NCBI RefSeq assembly: GCF_001941505.1
Contig: NZ_CP009248.1
Span: 868,001 to 932,000, forward strand
Direction: 5' to 3'
Source: Corynebacterium sphenisci DSM 44792
GTDB taxonomy: Bacteria; Actinomycetota; Actinomycetes; Mycobacteriales; Mycobacteriaceae
Length of the DNA stretch: 64,000 bases
Part shown: positions 43,920 to 56,568 of the stretch, piece after piece
How the letters are laid out: every line of letters begins with the position of its first letter
Numbering within the stretch: the first letter of the stretch is position 1
Program-made: the position numbers and the translations under genes
Notes under the pieces: model-generated
The model's input: the letters and a program-made list of their open reading frames with translations, nothing else
Told to the model about the DNA's origin: nothing
Databases searched by the model: none

Positions 43920-44177
43920 TCAGCCGCCCGCGAAGGGGGGCAGCACGTCCAGCCGCGCCACCCCGGCCAGCGGCGCGCCGGGATCGACCCGGCGGCCGTC
44001 GGCGAGGAAGGAGCAGGCCGGCAGGATCTCGGCCAGGGTGGTGCCCGCGGGGGTCCGCCCGGGGTGCGCCGCGGCGAGTTCGGCGAGCAGTTCGCCGAGC
44101 GTCGCCGGGGGTGCGCCGACGGTGGCCGAGGCCCTGCCGGCGGCGGCGCGGGCGGCGGCGTAGAAGCGGATTTCCAC
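43920..44177 (-). CDS. moaD: Molybdopterin synthase small subunit (MoaD/ThiS-like)
   Basis: 85 residues with a ubiquitin-like fold: [16 protein letters not shown] at the start and the essential C-terminal Gly-Gly (LPPFAGG), which is activated by MoeB and carries the thiocarboxylate sulfur for molybdopterin. I chose GTG at 44177 because CAGGAGAC lies just upstream and the fold begins there; a longer frame to 44294 would add an unrelated extension. It is divergent from moeA. Confidence 0.9.
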   Translation of the reverse strand: MEIRFYAAARAAAGRASATVGAPPATLGELLAELAAAHPGRTPAGTTLAEILPACSFLADGRRVDPGAPLAGVARLDVLPPFAGG

Positions 44178-44251: not shown

Positions 44252-45472
44252 ATGCGCACACCCGAGGAGCACCTCGACGCGGTGGCCGGGGCAATTCCCG
44301 GGCTGAGCTGCCAAACGGTGCTAGCCGAGGCGGCGGCGGACCGGATCCTGGCCGCCGACGTCACCGCCCCGGGGCCGTCCCCGCGCTTCGACAATTCGCA
44401 GATGGACGGCTGGGCGATCCCGGCCGCCCGGCTCGGCTCGCTGCCCGCGACGCTGTCGGTGGGGCCCACCATCGCCGCCGGGGCGGACCCGGCGCGGGTG
44501 CTGCCCGGGGGCCTCGGCGAGGCGGCGGCCGCGGTGATGACCGGGGCCCGGCTGCCGGCCGGCACCGGCGCGGTGGTGCCGGTGGAGGACTGCGACCCGG
44601 ACGACTTCGCCGCCGCCGAGGCCGCCGGCGCGGTGCGGGTGCCGGCCACCCCCGCCGGCCGGTTCATCCGCGCCGCCGGCTCCGATCTGCGGGCGGGGGA
44701 GACCGTGCTGCGCGCCGGGGACCGGCTCACCCCGGTGGCGGTGGCCGCGCTCATCGGGCTCGGCGTCACCGAGGTGCCGGTGCTGCGCCGGCCCCGGGTG
44801 ATCCTGTGCACCGGGGGCGCGGAGATCGGCCGCGGCGGCCCGGCCGGGATCCCGGACAGCAACGGGCCCATGCTGGAGCTGCTCTGCGCCGCCGCGGGCA
44901 TCGACGTGGCCCGCCGGATCCGGGTCGACGACGACCCGGCGGCGCTGCTTTCCGCCCTCGACGCCGCCCTGGCCGACCCCGGCGGCCCGGTGGACGCCAT
45001 CCTCACCTCCGGGGGGATCAGCCACGGCCGCTTCGAGGTGGTCCGGCTGGCCCTGGGCGGATCCCCCGGCGCCTGGTTCGGCCACGTCGCCCAGCAGCCC
45101 GGGGGCCCGCAGGGGCTCACCGCGCACCGCGGGGTGCCGGTGGTCTGCCTGCCCGGCAACCCCATGTCCACCCTGGTGTCCTTCCGGCTCTTCGCCCGGC
45201 CGGCGCTGCTGCGCGCCGAGGGCGCGGCGGCGGACGTCGGCGGGATCGCCGCCATCGCCGCGGAGCGGCTCACCGGGCTGCCCGACGCCCGGGTGAGCTT
45301 CCGCCGCGGCCGGCTGCGGGTGGACGGGGCCGGCCGGCTCACCGCCGCCCAGCTCGGCGGCGGCTCCTCCCACCTGCTCGCCCAGGCGGCGACCGCGGAC
45401 TGCCTGATCCGGGTGCCCGGCGGCGGCCGCGCCATCGCCGCCGGCGAACCGGTGACCGTATTGCGGCTGTGA
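44252..45472 (+). CDS. moeA: Molybdopterin molybdenumtransferase
   Basis: 406 residues. Domains follow MoeA: FDNSQMDGWAI (the conserved MDG/YA region), the beta-barrel insert (ADPARVLPGGLGEAAAAVMTGARLPAGTGAVVPVE), the GGAEIGRGG-type central motif, DSNGPMLELLCAAAG, TSGGISHGRFEVV (MPT site) and LPGNPMSTLVSFRLFARP. It inserts molybdate into adenylylated molybdopterin. AGGCAGGA precedes the ATG. It opens the moeA-moaB-moaE-moeB operon. Confidence 0.94.
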   Translation: MRTPEEHLDAVAGAIPGLSCQTVLAEAAADRILAADVTAPGPSPRFDNSQMDGWAIPAARLGSLPATLSVGPTIAAGADPARVLPGGLGEAAAAVMTGARLPAGTGAVVPVEDCDPDDFAAAEAAGAVRVPATPAGRFIRAAGSDLRAGETVLRAGDRLTPVAVAALIGLGVTEVPVLRRPRVILCTGGAEIGRGGPAGIPDSNGPMLELLCAAAGIDVARRIRVDDDPAALLSALDAALADPGGPVDAILTSGGISHGRFEVVRLALGGSPGAWFGHVAQQPGGPQGLTAHRGVPVVCLPGNPMSTLVSFRLFARPALLRAEGAAADVGGIAAIAAERLTGLPDARVSFRRGRLRVDGAGRLTAAQLGGGSSHLLAQAATADCLIRVPGGGRAIAAGEPVTVLRL

Positions 45473-45536
45473 GCCGCCGCCGGAGCCCCGGCACCCCGAG
45501 AACCCGATACCCCGACCCCGACCGAGGGAGCCCACC

Positions 45537-46085
45537 ATGAGCGACCGCACCGACCCCGCCGACCGCCCCGATCCCGGGCCCGGCCACGCCGCCGCCCCCG
45601 CCGCGGGTGCGGCGGACGGCCTGGTCATCGTCTCCTCCACCCGCGCCGCCGCCGGCGACTACGTCGACCGCACCGGCCCGGTGCTGGTGGACTGGCTGCG
45701 CTCCCGGGGGATCGCCACCCCGGACCCGGTGGTGGTCGCCGACGCCGATATCGCGGCGACCGTGGACCGGGTGCTCGGCGACCGCGGCCGGCTGCCCCGG
45801 GTGGTGCTCACCACCGGGGGCACCGGGATCACCGACGACGACCGCACCGTGGAGGCGGTGGAGCCCCACCTGGAGCGGCAGCTGCCCGGGGTGGTGCAGG
45901 CCTTCTTCGCCGCCGGGCTGGCGAATGTGCCCACCGCGGTGCTCTCCCGGGCGGTGGCCGGCACCGTGGGCCGCAGCTTCGTGATGACCCTGCCGGGCTC
46001 CCGCGGCGCCGTCGCCGACGGGATCGCGGTGCTGGACCCGGTGCTCGGCCACATCCTGACCATGCTGGAGCGAAATGAGCGTTGA
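45537..46085 (+). CDS. moaB: Molybdopterin adenylyltransferase (MoaB/MogA family)
   Basis: 182 residues. After a 28-residue low-complexity start comes the MogA fold: GLVIVSSTRAAAGDYVDRTG, then TTGGTGITDDDRTVEAVEP (the MPT-binding Gly/Thr/Asp motif) and LPGSRGAVADG. It activates molybdopterin with ATP before MoeA acts. GAGGGAG precedes the ATG. It overlaps moaE by 11 bp. Confidence 0.92.
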   Translation: MSDRTDPADRPDPGPGHAAAPAAGAADGLVIVSSTRAAAGDYVDRTGPVLVDWLRSRGIATPDPVVVADADIAATVDRVLGDRGRLPRVVLTTGGTGITDDDRTVEAVEPHLERQLPGVVQAFFAAGLANVPTAVLSRAVAGTVGRSFVMTLPGSRGAVADGIAVLDPVLGHILTMLERNER

Positions 46086-46539
46086 GGATCCCGCCCACGT
46101 GGCGGAGCAGACCGGGATGGTGCTCGGCGCCCGGGTGACCGCGGCGGCCCTGGAGCCGCTGGCCGCCGGGGCCCGGGCGGCGACGGCGACCGCGGCGATG
46201 GGCGCGGTGGTCGTCTTCGAGGGGACCGTCCGCGATCATGACGGCGGCCGCCGGGTGGCGGCGCTGTCCTACACCGCGCACCCGGAGGCCGAGGCGATGC
46301 TCGCCGCGGTGGCCGCCGAGGTGTGCCGCCGGCATCCGGAGACCCGGATCTGGGCGGCGCACCGGGTGGGCCCGCTGGCCATCGGGGAGCTGGCCTTCCT
46401 GGTGGTGGTCGCCGCCGCGCACCGGGCGGCGGCCTTCGCCGCCTGCGCCGACCTGGTCGACGCGGTGAAGGCGGGGGTGCCGATCTGGAAGGAGCAGCGC
46501 CTCGACGACGGCACCGTGCAGTGGGTGGGCGTCGAATGA
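46075..46539 (+). CDS. moaE: Molybdopterin synthase large subunit
   Basis: 154 residues. GAVVVFEGTVRDHDGGRRVAALSYTAHPEAEAML and the C-terminal VKAGVPIWKEQRLDDG are MoaE hallmarks, with the catalytic Lys in the PIWKEQ segment. It pairs with MoaD to convert cyclic pyranopterin to molybdopterin. It overlaps moaB at its start and moeB at its end (ATGA), showing close coupling. Confidence 0.93.
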   Translation: MSVEDPAHVAEQTGMVLGARVTAAALEPLAAGARAATATAAMGAVVVFEGTVRDHDGGRRVAALSYTAHPEAEAMLAAVAAEVCRRHPETRIWAAHRVGPLAIGELAFLVVVAAAHRAAAFAACADLVDAVKAGVPIWKEQRLDDGTVQWVGVE

Positions 46540-47672
46540 GCGCCGAACCCGGCGCGGCCCCCGGCGGGGCCGGCCCCGGCCTGGACCGGGATCAGGTCAG
46601 CCGGTACCGCCGGCAGCTGATGCTGGACCGCTTCGGCGCCGCCGGGCAGCGCGCCCTGCTGCGCGCCCGGGTGGCGGTGGTCGGCGCCGGCGGCCTGGGC
46701 TCCCCGGCGCTGCTCTACCTCGCCGGGGCCGGGGTGGGGCATCTGCACATCATCGACGATGACGTGGTGGGGGTGTCCAACCTGCACCGGCAGGTGATCC
46801 ACCCGCAGTCCGCGGTGGGCGTGAACAAGGCCGCCTCCGCCGCGGCCCGGGTGCGCGAGCTCAACCCCGGGGTGGTCGCCGTCGCCGACGGCCGCCGGCT
46901 GACCGCGGACGACGCCGCCGCGGTGCTCGCCGATGCGGAGGTGGTGCTGGACTGCACGGACAACTTCGCCGCCCGGCACATCATCTCCGCGGCCTGCGCG
47001 GAGCTGGGCATCCCCCATGTCTGGGGCGCGATCCTGGGCTACGGGGCGCGGCTGAGCGTCTTCCACGCCGGCCGCGGCCCGGTCTACGAGGACCTGGTGC
47101 CGGCGCCGCCGGACCCGGCGGCGGCGAGCTCCTGCGTCCGCGAGGGGGTGCTCGGACCGGTGCCCGGGATCGTCGGCGCGGCGATGGCCGGGGAGGCGAT
47201 CAAGCTCATCTGCGGGGTCGGCGAGCCGCTGCTGGGCACCGTCGGCTCCTTCGACATGCTCACCGGCCGCTGGGAGTACATCCCGGTGCTCGCCGGGGGC
47301 GCGGACCCGCGCGCCGGCGCCCCGGGGCCCGCCCCGGCCGCCGCGGGGCCCGCGGCGGGGCCGGCCGGCCCCACCCTGGTCGGCCCCGGGGAGCTCGCCG
47401 GGGCGGTGCTGCTGGACGTCCGGGAGCCCTGCGAGTTCTCCTCCTACGCGATCCCGGGCGCGGTGAACGCGCCGCTGAGCGCGCTGCGCGCCGGGGAGAT
47501 CCCCGGGGCCGCGCGGGCGGCCGCCGCCTCCGGTGCGGCGGTGGTGGTCTGCTCCGGCACCGATCGCCGGGCCCGGGCGGCGGCGGGGCTGCTCGCCGCG
47601 GCCGGGGTGGCCGCCGCGGTGCTCGACGGCGGGGTGGAGGCCTGGCTGGACGCCGGCGGCGACCCCGCCTGA
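46536..47672 (+). CDS. moeB: MoaD-activating adenylyltransferase with rhodanese domain (MoeB/MoeZ)
   Basis: 378 residues. The E1-like part has VVGAGGLGSPALLYLAGAGVG (ATP site), DDDVVGVSNLHRQ, DCTDNFAARHII and SCVREGVLGPVPG. The zinc-binding CxxC pairs of E. coli MoeB are absent, as in mycobacterial MoeZ. From about residue 285 a rhodanese domain follows with loop CSGTDRRAR as active site, which could donate sulfur. It adenylates and sulfurates MoaD. Its ATG overlaps the moaE stop, and its stop lies in a hairpin shared with the convergent moaC. Confidence 0.92.
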   Translation: MSAEPGAAPGGAGPGLDRDQVSRYRRQLMLDRFGAAGQRALLRARVAVVGAGGLGSPALLYLAGAGVGHLHIIDDDVVGVSNLHRQVIHPQSAVGVNKAASAAARVRELNPGVVAVADGRRLTADDAAAVLADAEVVLDCTDNFAARHIISAACAELGIPHVWGAILGYGARLSVFHAGRGPVYEDLVPAPPDPAAASSCVREGVLGPVPGIVGAAMAGEAIKLICGVGEPLLGTVGSFDMLTGRWEYIPVLAGGADPRAGAPGPAPAAAGPAAGPAGPTLVGPGELAGAVLLDVREPCEFSSYAIPGAVNAPLSALRAGEIPGAARAAAASGAAVVVCSGTDRRARAAAGLLAAAGVAAAVLDGGVEAWLDAGGDPA

Positions 47673-47686
47673 GCGCCCGCTCAGGC
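47667..47686. terminator. Bidirectional hairpin containing the moeB and moaC stop codons
   Basis: GCCTGAGCG-CC-CGCTCAGGC, 9-bp arms (47667-47675 and 47678-47686). Each arm contains the TGA of one convergent gene, leaving only 8 bp between the stop codons. Confidence 0.65.
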
Positions 47687-48184
47687 CGGGGGCAGCTGCC
47701 GGGACCAGTCCCCGGAGCGGCCCCCGGATTTCGCGATGATCCCGGTGCGCCGGATCATCGCCGAGCGGTCCACGCCCTTGACCATGTCGATCACCGCCAG
47801 GGCGGCCACGGTCACCGCGGTGAGCGCCTCCATCTCCACCCCGGTGCGGTCCGCGGTGCGCACCGTGGCCTCGATCGCGACATGGTCGGCGGCCAGCTCC
47901 AGGTCCACGCTCGCCCCGTGCACCCCGATGGCGTGGGCCAGGGGCAGCAGCTCCGGGGTGCGCTTCGCCGCGGCGATCCCGGCGATCCGGGCCACCGCGA
48001 GCACATCGCCCTTGGGCACGGCGCCCTCGCGCAGCGCGGCGAGCACCTCCGGGGAGCAGGCCACCTCCCCGCGGGCGGTGGCGCTGCGCACCGTGGGGGT
48101 CTTCGCGGTGACGTCGACCATCCGGGCCGCGCCGCGATCGTCGAGGTGGGTCAGCGTGATGGGCGCGTCGGGGCGCTCGGTCAT
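47681..48184 (-). CDS. moaC: Cyclic pyranopterin monophosphate synthase
   Basis: 167 residues. MVDVTAKTPTVRSATARGEV, LLPLAHAIGVHG and the C-terminal ALAVIDMVKGVDRSAMI with catalytic Lys follow MoaC. With MoaA it makes the first cofactor intermediate from GTP. AAGGAG precedes the ATG. It follows moaA by 71 bp on the same strand, so the two are likely cotranscribed. Confidence 0.93.
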   Translation of the reverse strand: MTERPDAPITLTHLDDRGAARMVDVTAKTPTVRSATARGEVACSPEVLAALREGAVPKGDVLAVARIAGIAAAKRTPELLPLAHAIGVHGASVDLELAADHVAIEATVRTADRTGVEMEALTAVTVAALAVIDMVKGVDRSAMIRRTGIIAKSGGRSGDWSRQLPPA

Positions 48185-48255
48185 GGGATGCTCCTTATCT
48201 CCCCGGGGCCGGCGGGGCCCGGGGACGTGGCCGGGGGACGGGGGTGTTGGGGGGC

Positions 48256-49305
48256 TCAGCCGCCGATGGCGCTCATCGGGCGCCCCGGCTGCCGGAAGCC
48301 GGGGGCGCCGATGCCGTGCCCGGCGGGCTTGGCCCGCATGGTAGCCGCCCAGGCCGCGGCGATCTCCGCGTCCCCGGCGCCGGCGCGCAGCAGCTCCCGC
48401 AGCGGGGTCTCCCCCCGGCTGAACAGGCAGGCGCGCACCGCCCCGTCCGCGGTGAGCCGGGTGCGGTCGCAGTCGCCGCAGAAGGGCGCGGTCACCGAGG
48501 CGATCACCCCGATCTCCCCGGCGGGCCCGCCGGCGCGCGGGACGGCCCGCCACAGCGCCGCGGGGGCGGCGCCGCGGGGCGCGGCGGCGGGGGTGAGCTC
48601 ATAGGCCTCGCCGAGCCTCGCCAGGATCTCCCCGGCGGTGACCATCGCCCCCCGGGACCAGGCCCGGGAGGGGCCCAGCGGCATCTGCTCGATGAAGCGC
48701 AGGCGCAGCCCCCGGGCCAGGGCGTGCCGGGCCAGGGGCAGGATGTCGGCCTCGTTGACCCCGGGCAGCACCACCGCGTTGAGCTTCACCGGGGTCAGCC
48801 CGGCGGCCCGGGCGGCGTCGATCCCGGCGAGCACGTCGGGCAGCCGCTTCCGGCGGGTGAGCATCGCGTGCCGGTCCGGGTCCAGGGTGTCCAGGGAGAC
48901 GTTCACCCGGTCCAGTCCGGCGGCGGCCAGGGCCGCGGCCCTGTGCGCCAGGCCCAGCCCGTTGGTGGTCAGCGCCACCTCCGGGGCCGCGCCGGCGTCG
49001 GTGGTGAGCGCCTTCGCCGCGGCGATGATCCCCGCCAGATCCCGGTGCAGCAGCGGCTCCCCGCCGGTGAGCCGCACCCGGCGGATGCCGAGATCGCGCA
49101 CCCCGATGGTGATCAGGCGGATGAACTCGGCGGTGGTGAGCGTCTCCTTCGGCGGCAGCCAGGGCAGGCCCTCGGCGGGCATGCAGTAGGTGCAGCGCAG
49201 ATTGCACCGGTCGGTGAGGCTGACCCGCAGATCGCGGGCCACCCGGCCGTGGTCATCGGCCAGGGTGCGCCGCCGGGGCGGGGCCAGGGGCACGGGGGCG
49301 GTCAT
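48256..49305 (-). CDS. moaA: GTP 3',8-cyclase (radical SAM)
   Basis: 349 residues. The radical-SAM cluster motif CNLRCTYCMP is near residue 35, RLTGGEPLLH follows, the second cluster motif is FCGDCDRTRLTADGAVRACLF, and the chain ends in the conserved Gly-Gly (SAIGG). It converts GTP to 3',8-cyclo-GTP for MoaC. It lies downstream of the cytochrome b-molybdoenzyme operon on the same strand (162 bp), linking cofactor supply with the putative enzyme. Confidence 0.94.
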   Translation of the reverse strand: MTAPVPLAPPRRRTLADDHGRVARDLRVSLTDRCNLRCTYCMPAEGLPWLPPKETLTTAEFIRLITIGVRDLGIRRVRLTGGEPLLHRDLAGIIAAAKALTTDAGAAPEVALTTNGLGLAHRAAALAAAGLDRVNVSLDTLDPDRHAMLTRRKRLPDVLAGIDAARAAGLTPVKLNAVVLPGVNEADILPLARHALARGLRLRFIEQMPLGPSRAWSRGAMVTAGEILARLGEAYELTPAAAPRGAAPAALWRAVPRAGGPAGEIGVIASVTAPFCGDCDRTRLTADGAVRACLFSRGETPLRELLRAGAGDAEIAAAWAATMRAKPAGHGIGAPGFRQPGRPMSAIGG

Positions 49306-49467: not shown

Positions 49468-49737
49468 TCAGGCCGCCTGCGGGGCGGTCCGGCGCTTCTT
49501 GACGGTGGCCCAGATCTTCCAGATCCCGTAGGCGCCGAAGATGGCCCAGATGAACTCCGTGATGAACAGGCCCGCGTTGAAGGGCTTGATCGCGGTGTAG
49601 GTGAAGCAGGCGGCGCCGATCAGGTTGGCCCACTGGTAGATGTAGGAGGTCGACTTCAGCAGCCCGGCGTTCAGGGCGGCGAAGGAGCCCAGGAAGCAGA
49701 TGGTGCCGAAGATGGAGACCGCGGCGGAAAGCGGCAT
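49468..49737 (-). CDS. CBU_0592-like small membrane protein (second of a pair)
   Basis: 89 residues with three hydrophobic segments: VSIFGTICFLGSFAALNAGL, YIYQWANLIGAACFTYTAI and FITEFIWAIFGAYGIWKIW. It shares the pattern YQW.N.IGAA...Y..I.PFN.G.FITE..W with the protein encoded just upstream, so the two are paralogs. This pattern is that of the CBU_0592 family, function unknown. AAAGGA precedes the ATG. Its place in an operon with a membrane molybdoenzyme suggests a subunit or assembly role, but that is inference. Confidence 0.75.
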   Translation of the reverse strand: MPLSAAVSIFGTICFLGSFAALNAGLLKSTSYIYQWANLIGAACFTYTAIKPFNAGLFITEFIWAIFGAYGIWKIWATVKKRRTAPQAA

Positions 49738-49766
49738 GATGATCAGTCCTTTCGTGGTGCTGCGGT

Positions 49767-50060
49767 TCAGGCGACGCGCGGCGCATCGGCCGCGGCGGCT
49801 CCGGGGGCGGGCTCGCCGCGTCGGCGGGCGAGGAAGATCTTGATGACGCCGTAGACGCCGATCAGCGTCCACACCGCCTCGGTGATGAACACGCCGACGT
49901 TGAACGGGTTGATGACCGAGTAGGTCAGCGCCGCCGCGCCGATGACGTTCAGCCACTGGTAGGTGTAGTGCTGCGGGGTGAGCTTGCCGAGGTTGAGCAA
50001 GCCGAAGGCCGCGAGCAGGGCGATCGGCGCGATGAGGCCGATTTCCTGGGCGAAGGGCAT
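49767..50060 (-). CDS. CBU_0592-like small membrane protein (first of a pair)
   Basis: 97 residues, three membrane segments (IGLIAPIALLAAFGLLNLG, TYQWLNVIGAAALTYSVI, FITEAVWTLIGVYGVIKIFL) and an Ala/Pro-rich soluble tail. It is the paralog of the following gene (29 bp apart). AAGGAGGAG precedes the ATG, one of the strongest ribosome sites in the operon, so it may be made in quantity. Function unknown. Confidence 0.75.
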   Translation of the reverse strand: MPFAQEIGLIAPIALLAAFGLLNLGKLTPQHYTYQWLNVIGAAALTYSVINPFNVGVFITEAVWTLIGVYGVIKIFLARRRGEPAPGAAAADAPRVA

Positions 50061-50162
50061 GTTCTTCTCCTCCTTGGGTCGGTGTTCGGGGTGGGTGGGT
50101 CCCCGGCGCCGCCGCCGCGGGGCGGCGGGGCGTCGTCGGGGTGCGGCCGGGGCGGCCGCGGG

Positions 50163-50873
50163 TCAGTTGTTGTGCTGGGCGTGCCGGCGCCGCTCGGGGA
50201 CGCGCAGCCGGCCCAGGGTGGGCAGGTCGAGCGCCTCCAGGGTCCCGGCCATGGCCTCGGCGGCGTCCTCGAAGGCGCGCAGCCGCTCCTCCTGGTCCGG
50301 GCGCAGCCGGCCGGCGGCCTGGTAGTGCTTCACCCGCGGGTAGCGCCCGGCGAGCAGGGAGCCGAAGTCCAGGGCCAGGTCGAACTGGCCCTCGTCGGCC
50401 TTGCCGCGCCCGGAGCGGGCGAAATCGGAGATGTCCGCCAGCACGTCGTGCAGCTGGGTGAGGTCCATGTCGATGCCCGGCACGGAGCCGTCGTCGGTGG
50501 CGTAGGAGTCCACCCCGGTGCGCGAGGGCCCGGTGGGGGTGTCCCGCCAGCGCTGCATGCGCAGGGTCTCGTTGGCCAGCACCGGCTCGTTGACCGGCAG
50601 CCGGGGCGCGTCCGCCGCGCCGAGCAGCTGGCCGCGGCTCATCCGGATGAAGGTGCGGTGATCCTCGAGGCCGGGGGCGGTGCAGCGCAGGCCGATGGCG
50701 TAGGACTCGAGGTCCTCGGACTGGAAGTTCCAGCCCACGTAGCGGGCCACGTCGGCGATCTCGAAGTCGCGGGCGGTGGCGCCGGGGAGGTGGAAGTCCA
50801 CCTCGACGAGGTAGTCGGCGACGATCCGCTTCTGCTCCTCGGTGAGGGTGATGTCCTGGTACAGGGGGTACAT
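50163..50873 (-). CDS. Hypothetical protein in the molybdoenzyme operon
   Basis: 236 residues, soluble, no signal peptide and no family I recognise. It opens MYPLYQDITLTEEQKRIVAD, has a region with DVARYVGWNFQSEDLESYAIGLRC and a long charged helical C-terminus rich in Arg and Glu (LRPDQEERLRAFEDAAEAM). It lies 13 bp after the cytochrome b-molybdopterin gene and 102 bp before the small membrane pair, so it is probably a cytosolic partner such as a chaperone or an electron-transfer adaptor; no cofactor motif supports either. Confidence 0.7.
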   Translation of the reverse strand: MYPLYQDITLTEEQKRIVADYLVEVDFHLPGATARDFEIADVARYVGWNFQSEDLESYAIGLRCTAPGLEDHRTFIRMSRGQLLGAADAPRLPVNEPVLANETLRMQRWRDTPTGPSRTGVDSYATDDGSVPGIDMDLTQLHDVLADISDFARSGRGKADEGQFDLALDFGSLLAGRYPRVKHYQAAGRLRPDQEERLRAFEDAAEAMAGTLEALDLPTLGRLRVPERRRHAQHNN

Positions 50874-50886
50874 GTGGCTCTCCTGG

Positions 50887-52371
50887 TCAGATCATCTGCA
50901 GGCGGTCGTAGCTGTCGAAGTCCTCGAACCAGCCACCCCGGCCCTTGCCGATGATGTCGTAGCGGTTGACCACCTCGATCCGCTCCACCCACTTGGCGGA
51001 GCGGAAGCCGGTGGAGATCTCCATGCGCACCCGCATCGGGGCGCCGTTCTTGATCGGGATGTCCTCGCCGTCGAGCTCGGTGGCGACCAGGGTCTGCTCC
51101 TGCATCGCCTCCATCATCGGGCAGGACTCGTAGTACCAGCCCTCCGGGTAGATGGCGTCGTCGCGGCCCATGTTCTGGAAGCAGTGGAAGACCACGTCGG
51201 TGGCCCCGTCCAGGGGGCGGGCCAGCTCCAGCAGGGTCTTCAGCGGGACCCCGCCCCAGGTGCCCACGGAGGAGAAGCCCTGCACGCAGTTGTGCATGGT
51301 GGTCTGCGAGTGGCCGGCGGCGAGTTCGCGCAGCTCGGCGAGGCTCAGCGTCATCGGCCGCTCCACCAGGCCGCCGATCTCCAGGTAGTAATCCTGGTAG
51401 TCGTTGGCCAGCAGGGCGAGGTACTCGTCGTTCTCCGGGGGGCAGCCCGAGGCCCGGAAGTGCTCGGTGGTCGCGGCCGGGTCATGATCCTGCCGGGACT
51501 CCAGCTTCATCAGCTGCCGGGTCAGCGGCCGGACGATCACGTTGTGGATCCGCTCGATGAACCGCGGGTGGTCCAGGGAGGTGCGGGTGGCCACGATGTG
51601 CAGCCACACCACGAGGGCCAGGCCGATGCTGAAGATCACCCCGCCGGCGACGGGGCTGTCCGCGTGGCCGAAGACCATCTTGGACACCTCGTGGCCGTAG
51701 CCGTGGGCGATGACCATCACCACGTGCACGACGATGAAGGCCAGGTAGGCCACCAGGCCCCACCAGTGCAGGGAGCGGATCATCTGCCGCCCGCCCATGG
51801 CCCGGGTGATCCGGGGCCAGTGCGAGTTCACCGCCGGGGACTGGAAGAAGCCGGTGATGATCATGAAGGCGGGGAAGATGAAGATCACCGCCGCGTAGGA
51901 CAGCTGCTGCACCGCGTTGAAGGGGTAGCCGGGCATGTGCTCGGGCACCTGGAAGGCCAGGTAGCTGACCATGTTGTCCAGGGCCTCGGGGAACACGGAC
52001 CAGGAGTGCGGGATGTAGCGGCGCCACTGGCCGGTGGCGAAGAGCAGCACGTAGTAGACGGCGAAGCAGATGATGAAGCCCATCACCGTCATGAAGTGCC
52101 AGTACCGGCCCTGGCCGAGCAGGCCCCGGCCGGGCAGCGAGATGATCGGCGAGTAATCCTCGTACTCGCTGCCGACCGCATAGTACTTGTGCTTCGGCTT
52201 TGATTTGATCGTGAACTCGGCCCACTGCTTTCCTGCGCGGGTGTGCACATTCGTGTGCAAACGCGGGAAGGTGCCCAGGATCTCGATGCCGGAGCGGATG
52301 AAGAAGGTGATGAAGATGATGTTGAGGAAGTGCTCCGCGCGGAGCCACCAGGGGAAGTCGAAGGTCGTCAT
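50887..52371 (-). CDS. Fused cytochrome b membrane domain and molybdopterin oxidoreductase domain
   Basis: 494 residues. Five membrane segments fill the N-terminal half (about 10-32, 91-115, 150-175, 195-220, 235-260), with His in helices 1, 2 and 4 (RAEHFLNII; GRYWHFMTV; RSLHWWGLVAYLAFIVVHVV) as candidate heme b ligands, as in Ni-Fe hydrogenase/formate dehydrogenase type cytochromes b. From about residue 330 follows a sulfite-oxidase-fold domain (PF00174 type): MHNCVQGFSSVGTWGGVPL with likely Mo ligand Cys362, and NGAPMRVRMEISTGFRSAKWVERI. There is no Tat signal. Positive charges favour a cytosolic molybdopterin domain. Substrate unknown; electrons should pass between the Mo centre and quinone or heme. 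Neighbouring cofactor genes fit. Confidence 0.85.
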   Translation of the reverse strand: MTTFDFPWWLRAEHFLNIIFITFFIRSGIEILGTFPRLHTNVHTRAGKQWAEFTIKSKPKHKYYAVGSEYEDYSPIISLPGRGLLGQGRYWHFMTVMGFIICFAVYYVLLFATGQWRRYIPHSWSVFPEALDNMVSYLAFQVPEHMPGYPFNAVQQLSYAAVIFIFPAFMIITGFFQSPAVNSHWPRITRAMGGRQMIRSLHWWGLVAYLAFIVVHVVMVIAHGYGHEVSKMVFGHADSPVAGGVIFSIGLALVVWLHIVATRTSLDHPRFIERIHNVIVRPLTRQLMKLESRQDHDPAATTEHFRASGCPPENDEYLALLANDYQDYYLEIGGLVERPMTLSLAELRELAAGHSQTTMHNCVQGFSSVGTWGGVPLKTLLELARPLDGATDVVFHCFQNMGRDDAIYPEGWYYESCPMMEAMQEQTLVATELDGEDIPIKNGAPMRVRMEISTGFRSAKWVERIEVVNRYDIIGKGRGGWFEDFDSYDRLQMI

Positions 52372-52386
52372 TGTCGGGCTCCTTGC

Positions 52387-52920
52387 CTAGTCCGTGAATC
52401 CCTGGGTGTCCGGCCAGGCGACGAGCATGCCGAAGTTGACCGCCCAATTGAGCGCCAGGTAGCCCAGGGAGGCGAAGGCCATGAGGTTCCAGGTCGCGGC
52501 GAGGCCCACCGGGGCGCCGTTCCAGACGAAGGGCGCGTCGCCGATGATGCCGCCGACGTAGATGATGAGCGCGCCGGCGGCGACCGCGGAACCGAAGTCC
52601 CAGATGCGCAGCCGGGTGGTCAGGCCGAAGGCCAGGAAGGCCACGGCCAGCGCGACGACCAGCCACAGCGCCGGTTCCGCATGGGGGAACGGCGGGTGGT
52701 CGGAGACGGCCACCGCCGCGGCGCAGCCGCCGATCAGGGCGACCACGGCCAGCAGCAGGGCCTTGGTCAGCCGGGGCAGGTTGAAGCGGAGGTAGCGCAG
52801 CACGTGGGCGCGTTTGGAACCGGGCCTGCGGTGCCGGTACACGTCCTCGGTGGCGTTGGGGGTGCCGACGACGTAGGGCGCGTCGCCCGGGCCGCCGCGG
52901 CCCTCTTCGATGATGTTCAT
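52387..52920 (-). CDS. Membrane protein at the head of the molybdoenzyme operon
   Basis: 177 residues. A soluble N-terminal 45 residues (GTPNATEDVYRHRRPGSKRAHVLRYLRFNLPRL) precedes four hydrophobic segments (LLLAVVALIGGCAAAVAV, LWLVVALAVAFLAFGL, SAVAAGALIIYVGGIIG, NLMAFASLGYLALNWAVNFG). I do not recognise the family. It is 15 bp upstream of the cytochrome b-molybdopterin gene and likely a membrane partner of that complex. Confidence 0.72.
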   Translation of the reverse strand: MNIIEEGRGGPGDAPYVVGTPNATEDVYRHRRPGSKRAHVLRYLRFNLPRLTKALLLAVVALIGGCAAAVAVSDHPPFPHAEPALWLVVALAVAFLAFGLTTRLRIWDFGSAVAAGALIIYVGGIIGDAPFVWNGAPVGLAATWNLMAFASLGYLALNWAVNFGMLVAWPDTQGFTD

Positions 52921-53282: not shown

Positions 53283-53990
53283 TCAGCCGGCCAGGATCAC
53301 CGCCAGGGTGCGCGGGCCGTGCACGCCCTCCACCCGGTTGAGCTCGATGTCCGAGGTCGCCGAGGGCCCGGAGATGAGCGTGGTGGGCCGGGTGGGCTCG
53401 AGTTCCGCCAGCGCCTCGGGCACCCCGTGCACGATGCGCGCCACCGGCACCACGCAGATGTGCGCGTCCGGCACCAGGGTCAGCGCCCGGCGGCCGCATT
53501 CGGGGGAGCCGTCGAGGAAGATGGTGCCGGTCTCCGCGGAGACCACCGCGCAGGAGGTGAGCACCGCGTCCGCGGCGTCGAGCGCGCGCGGGTCCACCCC
53601 CGGATCATCGGCCTCGACCTCGGCGGCGACGCCGGCGGTCCAGGCGCGGTCCACGCCCGGGGCCAGGCGCAGCCGGAACCGGTCGTCGGCGGTCCCGGAA
53701 CCGCCGCCGCGGCGGGGCACCAGCTCCAGGGCCCGGCCCACCGCGGCGGCGATCTCCGCCGGTTCCGCGCCGCAGCGCAGCACCGCGGCCCCGTAGTCGT
53801 CGAGCCGGTCCACCAGCAGCTCCACCAGCTCCGGGGTGCGCGGCCGGCCGGCGTCGTAGTCCCGCGGCACCGGGTAGGGCTCATCGGGCACGATGCGCGG
53901 CCCGTCGAGCACCGCCCCGGCCCAGTCCTGCCCGGCGGCCGCGGCCCGCGCGGAGCGGATCCGCGCCAGGATCTCCTGCTTCGCGTTCAT
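53283..53990 (-). CDS. lutC: Lactate utilization protein C (LUD domain)
   Basis: 235 residues. The LUD fold is shown by DAVLTSCAVVSAETGTIFLDGSPECGRRALTLVPDAHICVV (split over residues 140-180) and the C-terminal GPSATSDIELNRVEGVHGPRTLAVIL. LutC is part of the LutABC iron-sulfur complex that oxidises L-lactate to pyruvate. Its ATG overlaps the lutB stop (ATGA). Confidence 0.93.
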   Translation of the reverse strand: MNAKQEILARIRSARAAAAGQDWAGAVLDGPRIVPDEPYPVPRDYDAGRPRTPELVELLVDRLDDYGAAVLRCGAEPAEIAAAVGRALELVPRRGGGSGTADDRFRLRLAPGVDRAWTAGVAAEVEADDPGVDPRALDAADAVLTSCAVVSAETGTIFLDGSPECGRRALTLVPDAHICVVPVARIVHGVPEALAELEPTRPTTLISGPSATSDIELNRVEGVHGPRTLAVILAG

Positions 53991-55588
53991 CGCCGCGCCT
54001 CCTTCCCGTCCCCGCCTTCCCCCTCGCCGGCGGCATCGTCCCCCCGCGCGGCGGCCCCGCCGCGGATCCGCGAGGGCACCGGGTGCTCCCGCTCCCCGGC
54101 GAGCAGCGCGGCGGCCTCGTCCCCGCCCCACCACTGCCGGAAGGCCGCCTTCGGCGGCACCGGGGTGTCCCGGGCGTCGGTCCAGCCGGCCAGGAAGGAC
54201 GGCAGCGGCGGGATCCGCCCGGAGCGCCCGCCGAGCAGGCGGGCCAGGGAGGCCATCCGCACCGTGGCGTCCCACAGTGCCCGGTGGCCCATCACGGTGC
54301 CCAGGGCGGCGAAGATCCGCCGCTCCACCGGGGGCCGGGTCTCGGCCACCTTGCGCTGGCGCAGCTCCAGCAGGGCGGCCGGGATGTCGATCTTCACCGG
54401 GCACACCTCGAAGCAGGCCCCGCACAGCGAGGAGGCGTAGGGCAGCGAGGCGTTCGGGTCCCCGTGATCGGCCATCCCGGTGAGCTGCGGGGTGAGGATC
54501 GCCCCGATCGGGCCCGGGTAGGTGGAGCCGTAGGCGTGCCCGCCGGCGCGCTCGTAGACCGGGCAGATGTTCAGGCAGGCCGAGCAGCGGATGCACTTGA
54601 GCGCCTCGGCGCCGATCGCGTCGCCCAGGGCCGCGGTGCGGCCGTTGTCCAGCAGCACCACGTGGAACTCGGCCGGCCCGTCGCCGGGGGTGACCCCGGT
54701 CCACAGGGAGGTGTACGGGTTCATCCGCTCCCCGGTCGAGGAGCGCGGCAGCAGCTGCAGGAACACCTCCAGGTCCCGGTAGGCCGGCAGCAGCTTCTCG
54801 ATGCCCATCACCGTGATCAGGGTCTCCGGCAGGGTCAGGCACATCCGGCCGTTGCCCTCGGACTCCACCACGGCGACGGTGCCGGTCTCCGCGATCCCGA
54901 AGTTCGCCCCGGAAATGGCGACCTTCGCGGCCATGAAGCGCTCGCGCAGGAAGGTCCGGGAGGCCTCCGCCAGCTCCGCCGGGTCCTCGCCGAGGTCCTC
55001 GCGCACCCCGGGGATGCCCTCGAGGAAGATCTCCCGGATCTCCGAGCGGTTGCGGTGGATGGCGGGCACCAGGATATGGGAGGGGGTGTCGTCGGCGAGC
55101 TGCACGATGAGCTCGGCGAGATCGGTCTCCTGGGCGTGCACCCCGGCCTCGGCGAGCCGGTCGTTGAGCCCGATCTCCTCGGTGGCCATGGACTTGACCT
55201 TGACCACCTCGGTCTCCCCGGTGGCGCGCACCAGGTCGGTGACGATCCGGCCGGCCTCCACCGCGTCGCGGGCCCAGTGCACCCGTCCGCCGCGGGCGGT
55301 GACCGCGGCCTCGAACTGCTCCAGCAGCTCCGGCAGCCGGGCGTTGACGTCGCGCTTGATGGCGGAGCCGGCGTCGCGCAGGCGCTGCCAGTCGGGTTTC
55401 TCGGCGACGACCTCGCCGCGTTTGGCGCGGATGGTGCGGGTGGCGTTGCGCAGGTTGCCGCGCAGCTGCCGGTCGCGCAGCTCATGGTGCGCGGCGGCGG
55501 GGAAGCCCTCCGTCCCGCGCAGGTGGCCCACCCCGTCGGGGGCGTGCGGGCCGGGTCGGGCGGGCAGGCCCAGGTGCACCGGGCTCAT
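53987..55588 (-). CDS. lutB: Lactate utilization iron-sulfur protein B
   Basis: 533 residues. The LUD-type N-terminal part (VVKVKSMATEEIGLNDRLAEAGV; ISGANFGIAETGTVAVVESEGNGR) is followed by two [4Fe-4S] motifs, CIRCSACLNICP near residue 335 and CGACFEVCP near 390. The C-terminus ends in a Gly/Glu-rich disordered tail. It is the electron-transfer subunit of lactate oxidation. It overlaps lutA and lutC by 4 bp each. Confidence 0.94.
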   Translation of the reverse strand: MSPVHLGLPARPGPHAPDGVGHLRGTEGFPAAAHHELRDRQLRGNLRNATRTIRAKRGEVVAEKPDWQRLRDAGSAIKRDVNARLPELLEQFEAAVTARGGRVHWARDAVEAGRIVTDLVRATGETEVVKVKSMATEEIGLNDRLAEAGVHAQETDLAELIVQLADDTPSHILVPAIHRNRSEIREIFLEGIPGVREDLGEDPAELAEASRTFLRERFMAAKVAISGANFGIAETGTVAVVESEGNGRMCLTLPETLITVMGIEKLLPAYRDLEVFLQLLPRSSTGERMNPYTSLWTGVTPGDGPAEFHVVLLDNGRTAALGDAIGAEALKCIRCSACLNICPVYERAGGHAYGSTYPGPIGAILTPQLTGMADHGDPNASLPYASSLCGACFEVCPVKIDIPAALLELRQRKVAETRPPVERRIFAALGTVMGHRALWDATVRMASLARLLGGRSGRIPPLPSFLAGWTDARDTPVPPKAAFRQWWGGDEAAALLAGEREHPVPSRIRGGAAARGDDAAGEGEGGDGKEARR

Positions 55589-56409
55589 CGGGCACCCCCC
55601 GCGTTCGCGGCGACGTCCGCCGGGGCGGCGTGGCCGGCCGCGCCCGGGCCGGCGTAGGGCCGGCGGCGGGTGCTGGCCAGGATCTCGGCGAGGTGGATGG
55701 CGCGCACCGGCAGCGCCCCGCCGCGGGCCTGCCGGTTGAGCGCCCCGCCGATGTTCATCAGGCAGGAGGCGTCGCCGGCGGTGACGAACTCGGCGCCGGT
55801 GGCGCGGATGTTCGCGGTCTTGTCGGCGACCATCGCCTGGGAGGTCTCCGCGTTCTTGATCGCGAAGGTGCCGCCGAAGCCGCAGCATTCCTCGGCCCCG
55901 GGCAGGTCCACCAGGTCGATGCCCGCCACGGCGCGCAGCAGCCGCAGCGGGCGCTCGCCGATGCGCAGCACCCGCAGGGAATGGCAGGTGGAGTGGTAGG
56001 TCACCCGGTGCGGGAACCAGGCGCCCAGATCGGTGACCCCGGCGACGTCGACGATGAACTCGGCGAGATCCAGGGTCTTCGCCGCGGTGCGCTCGGCGGC
56101 GTCGACCTGGGCGGCGTCGCCGAAGCGGCGGGCGATGGCCGGGTGCTGGTGGCGCACCGCCCCGGTGCAGGAGCCCGAGGGCGCCACCACGTAGTCGATC
56201 GAGTCGTCGAGGAAGGCCTCGGTGAATCGATCCAGTTGGGGCAGGGTCTCCTTCTGGTACCCGGTGTTGACGTGCATCTGCCCGCAGCAGGACTGCTCGG
56301 GCGGGAAGACGACCTCGCAGCCGAGCCGGGTGAGCACGGCGGCCGTCGCCTTCACGGCATCGGGGAACATCATGTCCCCGATGCAGGTGGCGAATAACGC
56401 GACCTTCAT
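55585..56409 (-). CDS. lutA: Lactate utilization protein A (CCG-domain)
   Basis: 274 residues with two cysteine-rich CCG domains: EQSCCGQMH near residue 40 and [14 protein letters not shown] near 180, plus HSTCHSLR between. These bind a non-cubane Fe-S cluster of the heterodisulfide-reductase type and probably form the lactate-oxidising centre. AAGGAGCG lies just before the ATG. It is first in lutABC and divergent from argS; the 173-bp spacer shows no clear regulator site to me. Confidence 0.94.
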
Positions 56410-56568
56410 CGGACGCTCCTTGGGTGGGGTCGGGGATGGGCTGGTTCGCCGGTGCCGCGGCCGCCGTCGGCGGGCCGGTGGCTCGCGGCCGGGCCGGGCC
56501 GCGGCCCCGGCGGCGTGGGCCGGGGCGGTCGCGCATCGGGCACGTCCAAGTGTACGAGTCTCACCGGC

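Follow-up and report, generated by a model that had tools for sequence, protein, structure and literature searches.

To our knowledge, the characterized membrane-linked reductases of the sulfite oxidase family, MsrP and the Sco3746 type, all work outside the membrane. MsrPQ (YedYZ) consists of separate polypeptides, of which MsrP is exported by the twin-arginine translocation (Tat) pathway. A one-chain arrangement has also been described: Sco3746 and its homologs have five transmembrane domains (TMDs) with heme histidines in TMDs 2–4, a Tat motif before TMD5 and a C-terminal molybdenum cofactor (Moco) domain, whose export by Tat was shown with reporters, making this a case of dual Sec/Tat insertion (eLife 2017, PMC5449189, in the available portion). 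Here, we describe a five-gene locus, A to E, from Corynebacterium sphenisci DSM 44792, the genome of which is a single contig (NZ_CP009248.1) of 2,594,799 bases. The locus lies on the minus strand at 49468–52920 of a 64,000-nucleotide stretch (contig positions 868,001–932,000), hereafter the window, to which gene coordinates refer. Gene B encodes a cytochrome b fused to a molybdenum domain, and on balance the analysis favors A-B-C being a membrane-bound, quinol-linked molybdenum reductase with its catalytic domain facing the cytoplasm, and D/E being an optional module. The inward-facing molybdenum domain, as predicted, would be the most distinctive point of the system.

Protein B (50887–52371, 494 aa) has a cytochrome b part of five helices (residues 1–267; 51571–52371) and a molybdenum domain of the sulfite-oxidase fold (model residues 315–487; 50911–51429). 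Residues 6–235 match Ni_hydr_CYTB (PF01292; E 1.9e-14, over the cut-off), and residues 324–470 match Oxidored_molyb (PF00174) with E 7.5e-31 and 107.4 bits against a cut-off of 24. In the model, the transmembrane (TM) helices span residues 8–34, 85–113, 153–175, 195–222 and 240–267. Judged by sequence and modeling, B is an FdnI/HyaC-like cytochrome b joined to an MsrP-like molybdenum domain of the sulfite-oxidase fold. It shares with the Sco3746 type, known from actinobacteria and beyond, the five TM helices, the b-heme histidines and the C-terminal sulfite-oxidase-family molybdenum domain, all in one polypeptide. Hence the novelty that a sequence-only reading of this DNA had implied for a cytochrome b–molybdenum fusion does not stand, as Sco3746 and its homologs were described in 2017. 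Compared with what the available part of PMC5449189 reports for that type, B differs in having no RR motif, in matching PF01292, in the predicted inside location of its molybdenum domain and in the placement of its histidines, which sit in TM1, TM2 and TM4 (two in TM4).

These histidines are almost invariant. Among 153 homolog rows (157 were aligned; the rows include related sequences and some repeats), H14 and H92 are each kept in 152, and H202 and H216 in all 153. In FdnI the heme ligands are H18/H169 and H57/H155, and those within helix IV lie 14 residues apart. The histidine pattern of B matches that of FdnI; in the predicted orientation, we propose, H14/H216 would ligate a heme on the outer side and H92/H202 an inner heme beside the molybdenum domain. 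Unlike FdnI and HyaC, B is fused to its molybdenum domain rather than docked on Fe-S subunits, and its predicted orientation is inverted. NCBI annotates the relatives of B only as molybdopterin-dependent oxidoreductases, and we recognized no study of this family among open-access titles and abstracts, a coverage that leaves subscription literature outside.

The nearest solved relative of the molybdenum domain is MsrP, with which B shares the fold and the cysteine ligand; C362, aligned with the molybdenum-ligating cysteine of MsrP, is kept in 153/153 rows. At the position of the MsrP glutamate (Glu104) that follows this ligand, however, every one of the 153 rows has glutamine, and the motif reads C-V-Q-G-[WF]-[ST] where that of MsrP is C-V-E-A-W-S. 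Given this substitution, methionine sulfoxide may well not be what B reduces. B also differs from MsrPQ in having a cytochrome that is not MsrQ-like and in missing the NCBIfam MsrP equivalog cut-off (74.4 bits against 207). Could B instead run in reverse, as a sulfite:quinone oxidoreductase that oxidizes cytoplasmic sulfite and delivers electrons to the quinone pool? The domain does have the sulfite oxidase fold, and in structure comparison the sulfite dehydrogenase 2blf (16.4) and the nitrate reductase 2bii (16.3) are level with MsrP; moreover, at one close locus (L071) genes called by eye as sulfate-activation-like lie beside C. In sequence, however, the domain is nearer to MsrP (74.4 bits) than to SorA (52.1), SoxC (32.3) or SorT (21.7), the motif around the cysteine resembles that of MsrP and not that of sulfite oxidase, and according to the available text of PMC7759655, group 1 (YedY-like) enzymes are probably reductases without exception. 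We therefore regard sulfite oxidation by B as unlikely.

As for the side that the molybdenum domain faces, in 153/153 rows the charges of loop 1, loop 3 and the region after TM5 add up to more than those of the N-terminus, loop 2 and loop 4 (means +11.9 versus −3.3). RR, KR or RK occurs in none of the 153 rows within the aligned stretch before TM5, and B has no N-terminal RR. Sec is not expected to carry a folded molybdenum domain, and a Tat motif is missing; a cytoplasmic domain is therefore the best reading that the charge rule and the missing motif allow. Nine class-level members have an extra N-terminal hydrophobic segment, and their C-terminus stays inside if that segment starts inside. 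Ten loci with other PF00174-type matches served as a control; two of them, from related genomes (L129, L130), are five-helix proteins like Sco3746, and in each of these RR immediately precedes TM5.

Several points weigh against this picture of B. The predicted topology derives from a charge rule and the absence of a motif, and on the two Sco3746-type controls the charge sums were mixed (0 versus 2; 14 versus 7), one right and one wrong. FdnI and HyaC are themselves oriented opposite to the predicted B, whose structural match to FdnI falls within the chance range for helical bundles (cytochrome bc1 chains reach 7–8). Nor does structure separate reductase from oxidase, given the tie of 2blf and 2bii with MsrP. 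With an N-in orientation like that of FdnI, the C-terminus of B would lie outside, and B could be a one-chain MsrPQ-like repair enzyme, its molybdenum domain placed as in Sco3746 and reducing methionine sulfoxide in envelope proteins. Such a role would fit MsrP being the nearest solved relative and the five-TMD heme b–molybdenum fusions published in actinobacteria (PMC5449189, available portion). Yet the twin arginine that both Sco3746-type controls possess is missing from all 153 rows, in every one of which the loop charges also oppose an outside molybdenum domain. Together with the invariant glutamine and the missed MsrP cut-off, this makes an exported repair enzyme distinctly improbable.

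With a cytoplasmic molybdenum domain, menaquinol would be oxidized near the outer heme of B, electrons would run inward to the molybdenum center, and an S-oxide, N-oxide or oxyanion would be reduced there. The link to the quinone pool proposed in the sequence-only reading thus appears likely, by way of the FdnI/HyaC-like two-heme cytochrome b. If, as in FdnI, the quinone site lies at the heme distal to the partner, quinol oxidation would take place outside and reduction of the oxide inside, and the reaction would be electrogenic; by analogy, B would then possibly resemble the NarGHI half-loop, but in one polypeptide. Tentatively, and with more doubt than confidence, we suggest that B may be a single-polypeptide electrogenic menaquinol:oxide reductase, in which an FdnI-type cytochrome b, inverted in the membrane, is fused to a cytoplasmic molybdenum center of the sulfite-oxidase fold. 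Within the sulfite-oxidase family it would correspond to the NarGHI half-loop, with members in actinobacteria and, more distantly, in proteobacteria and haloarchaea. The likeness to NarGHI would lie in the proposed function alone: the NarGHI molybdenum domain belongs to the DMSO-reductase family, carries bis(molybdopterin guanine dinucleotide) and has no sequence or fold relation to B. The only PF00384 match of C. sphenisci, a separate, narG-like enzyme, is encoded at 1580417 of the genome contig; by eye, the surrounding region (1577000–1592000; L105) resembles a narK-narGHJI cluster flanked by mobA- and mog-like genes.

Which genes belong with B is indicated by their layout and inheritance. 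A (52387–52920) and B are 15 bp apart, B and C (50163–50873) 13 bp, C and D (49767–50060) 102 bp, and D and E (49468–49737) 29 bp; third-position GC of the five genes is 95–99%. The description given in the sequence-only reading holds throughout: five same-strand genes 13–102 bp apart, encoding a four-helix membrane protein (A, 177 aa, with four hydrophobic segments), the fusion (B, with both domains over their cut-offs), a soluble unknown (C, 236 aa) and two tandem CBU_0592-like proteins. The latter, D (97 aa) and its paralog E (89 aa), are small, accessory membrane proteins scoring 72.6 and 60.5 bits against the NCBIfam CBU_0592 (NF047864) cut-off of 25. In a genus sample of 131 genomes, the window's own included, full-length matches to B occur in 18, ten of them, the window's own among these, at ≥63% identity and the other eight at 34–37%; another 54 genomes have partial matches only. 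A and C are each found in 10/131 genomes, the very ten with close-form B, and always adjacent to it. Adding five contigs of metagenome-assembled genomes gives 15 distinct close loci, and in all of them A-B-C lie in this order on one strand.

CBU_0592 genes occur in 17/131 genomes, invariably as a tandem pair: the ten with close B and seven others (L098–L104) that lack A, C and close B, one of the seven (G087) having a distant fusion at another chromosomal site. Because A and C are co-inherited with close B while D/E also occur alone, A-B-C is an inherited unit and D/E an add-on. The earlier proposal of a five-protein membrane complex accordingly finds support for A-B-C as one unit but not for D/E as an obligate part, and the flanking genes scatter independently of the fusion only in the case of D/E, and there in part. 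All 15 close loci do have the D/E pair adjacent to A-B-C, downstream on the same strand in nine and divergent upstream, hence in an orientation of its own, in six. Yet with the pair alone in seven genomes, and with D and E as queries finding no match at nine distant fusion loci (L075–L079, L121–L124), an obligate A-B-C-D-E complex is very unlikely. Rather, D/E is probably a dispensable membrane module that accompanies A-B-C in some genomes, lone pairs having a function independent of the fusion enzyme. The stand-alone pairs of the seven genomes have no neighbor common to all, two genomes sharing a stretch, and CBU_0592 is named in no paper of the open-access literature searched. A TetR-type gene stands beside D/E in 8/10 genus genomes, one member being confirmed by Pfam. 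Several further observations concern the genus loci. Three of the ten close genomes carry same-strand lactate-utilization (Lut) genes upstream (window 53283–56536; L067, L068). A small soluble protein (homologous part of ~80–90 aa) is encoded 3′ of the distant fusion in 8/8 genus genomes having that fusion (L080–L087). A Chloroflexi-labeled contig (PDQY01000141.1, L005) carries the entire block from A to E with moaA and moaC, B being 77% identical; this is probably a binning error.

For the two constant partners, A and C, no Pfam or NCBIfam family scores over cut-off. A has a conserved N-terminal stretch, RxxxYxRxNLPR, and no invariant His or Cys among the homologs compared; it is probably a structural or quinone-site subunit. 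C, with an α/β N-terminal part and a C-terminal helical bundle, is probably a cytoplasmic cap, chaperone or docking protein. A C profile run on 296 genomes of the phylum (nine candidates scored per genome, so that misses are possible) found matches in six, the window's own included, all beside a fusion. At more distant loci, C is split into two proteins, the N-half encoded after B and the C-half after the N-half or convergent to it. Four cysteines in zinc-ribbon-like spacing, as read by eye, are present in the N-half of L122 and L123 but mostly missing from the close form. An A-like protein is encoded upstream in 8/8 split-C loci with B at 42–50% (L075–L078, L121–L124), whereas L079 (B 40%) has no A match. 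Between A and B, L121–L123 have a gene for a putative lipoprotein that matches no Pfam family over cut-off, and a related-looking gene lies nearby in L075 and L078. C homologs at ~50% in Oceanimonas, Marinomonas and Denitrificimonas suggest horizontal spread.

Full-length relatives of B are also encoded on haloarchaeal, rhizobial and Rhodococcus plasmids. Of the seven plasmid records opened (L106–L112), several have genes around the distant fusion that hint at nitrogen-oxide biology: a 397-aa globin together with an Rrf2 regulator (L108), a gene annotated as nitrate reductase (L112), a formate/nitrite transporter (L106), NnrS 6 kb from the fusion (L110), and an oxidase subunit I with a multicopper oxidase (L107). 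A TehA-type transporter adjoins the fusion in both haloarchaeal records opened. Elsewhere, a large FAD/Fe-S oxidase is encoded near three distant loci (L075, L079, L123), and genes called by eye as formate dehydrogenase subunit-like lie upstream of the distant fusion in L121 and L124.

Molybdenum cofactor genes do adjoin the locus, as the sequence-only reading had claimed. The next same-strand gene, 162 bp past E, is moaA (48256–49305, minus strand), followed by moaC (MoaC domain at 47681–48157 within the open reading frame (ORF) 47681–48553); moeA, mog/moaB, moaE and moeB occupy the opposite strand (44252–47672, plus), and a MoaD/ThiS-fold match lies at 43923–44171 (minus). These genes would supply cofactor and stand outside the complex. 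ABC-permease/ATPase and solute-binding ORFs take the places of modBC and modA. Several cofactor genes score under NCBIfam equivalog cut-offs, while MoeA, MoaE, ThiF and MoCF_biosynth domains pass those of Pfam. Where D/E lie downstream, moaA and moaC come next in 7/9 close loci. A specific link of the fusion to moa/mod genes, also part of the sequence-only reading, fared less well: MoaC is present in all 18 genus genomes with the fusion, but so is a PF00384 molybdoenzyme, and because each of these genomes has another molybdoenzyme the co-occurrence is uninformative. Likewise, no fusion was found apart from cofactor genes, either in the genus (18/18) or at class level (12/12 fusion genomes versus a background of 169/197), which agrees with the claim and is equally uninformative. 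Many of the PF00384 matches in the genus continue across a single in-frame TGA within frames of ~1,100 aa, the pattern expected of selenocysteine formate dehydrogenases.

Overall, the A-B-C unit is a defined target for knock-out and purification, and the system is widespread, being present in 18/131 genomes of the genus and on haloarchaeal, rhizobial and Rhodococcus plasmids. If the reading proposed here is right, a cytoplasm-facing version would do without Tat export and, being quinol-linked, would place the sulfite-oxidase cofactor family in energy-conserving respiration.

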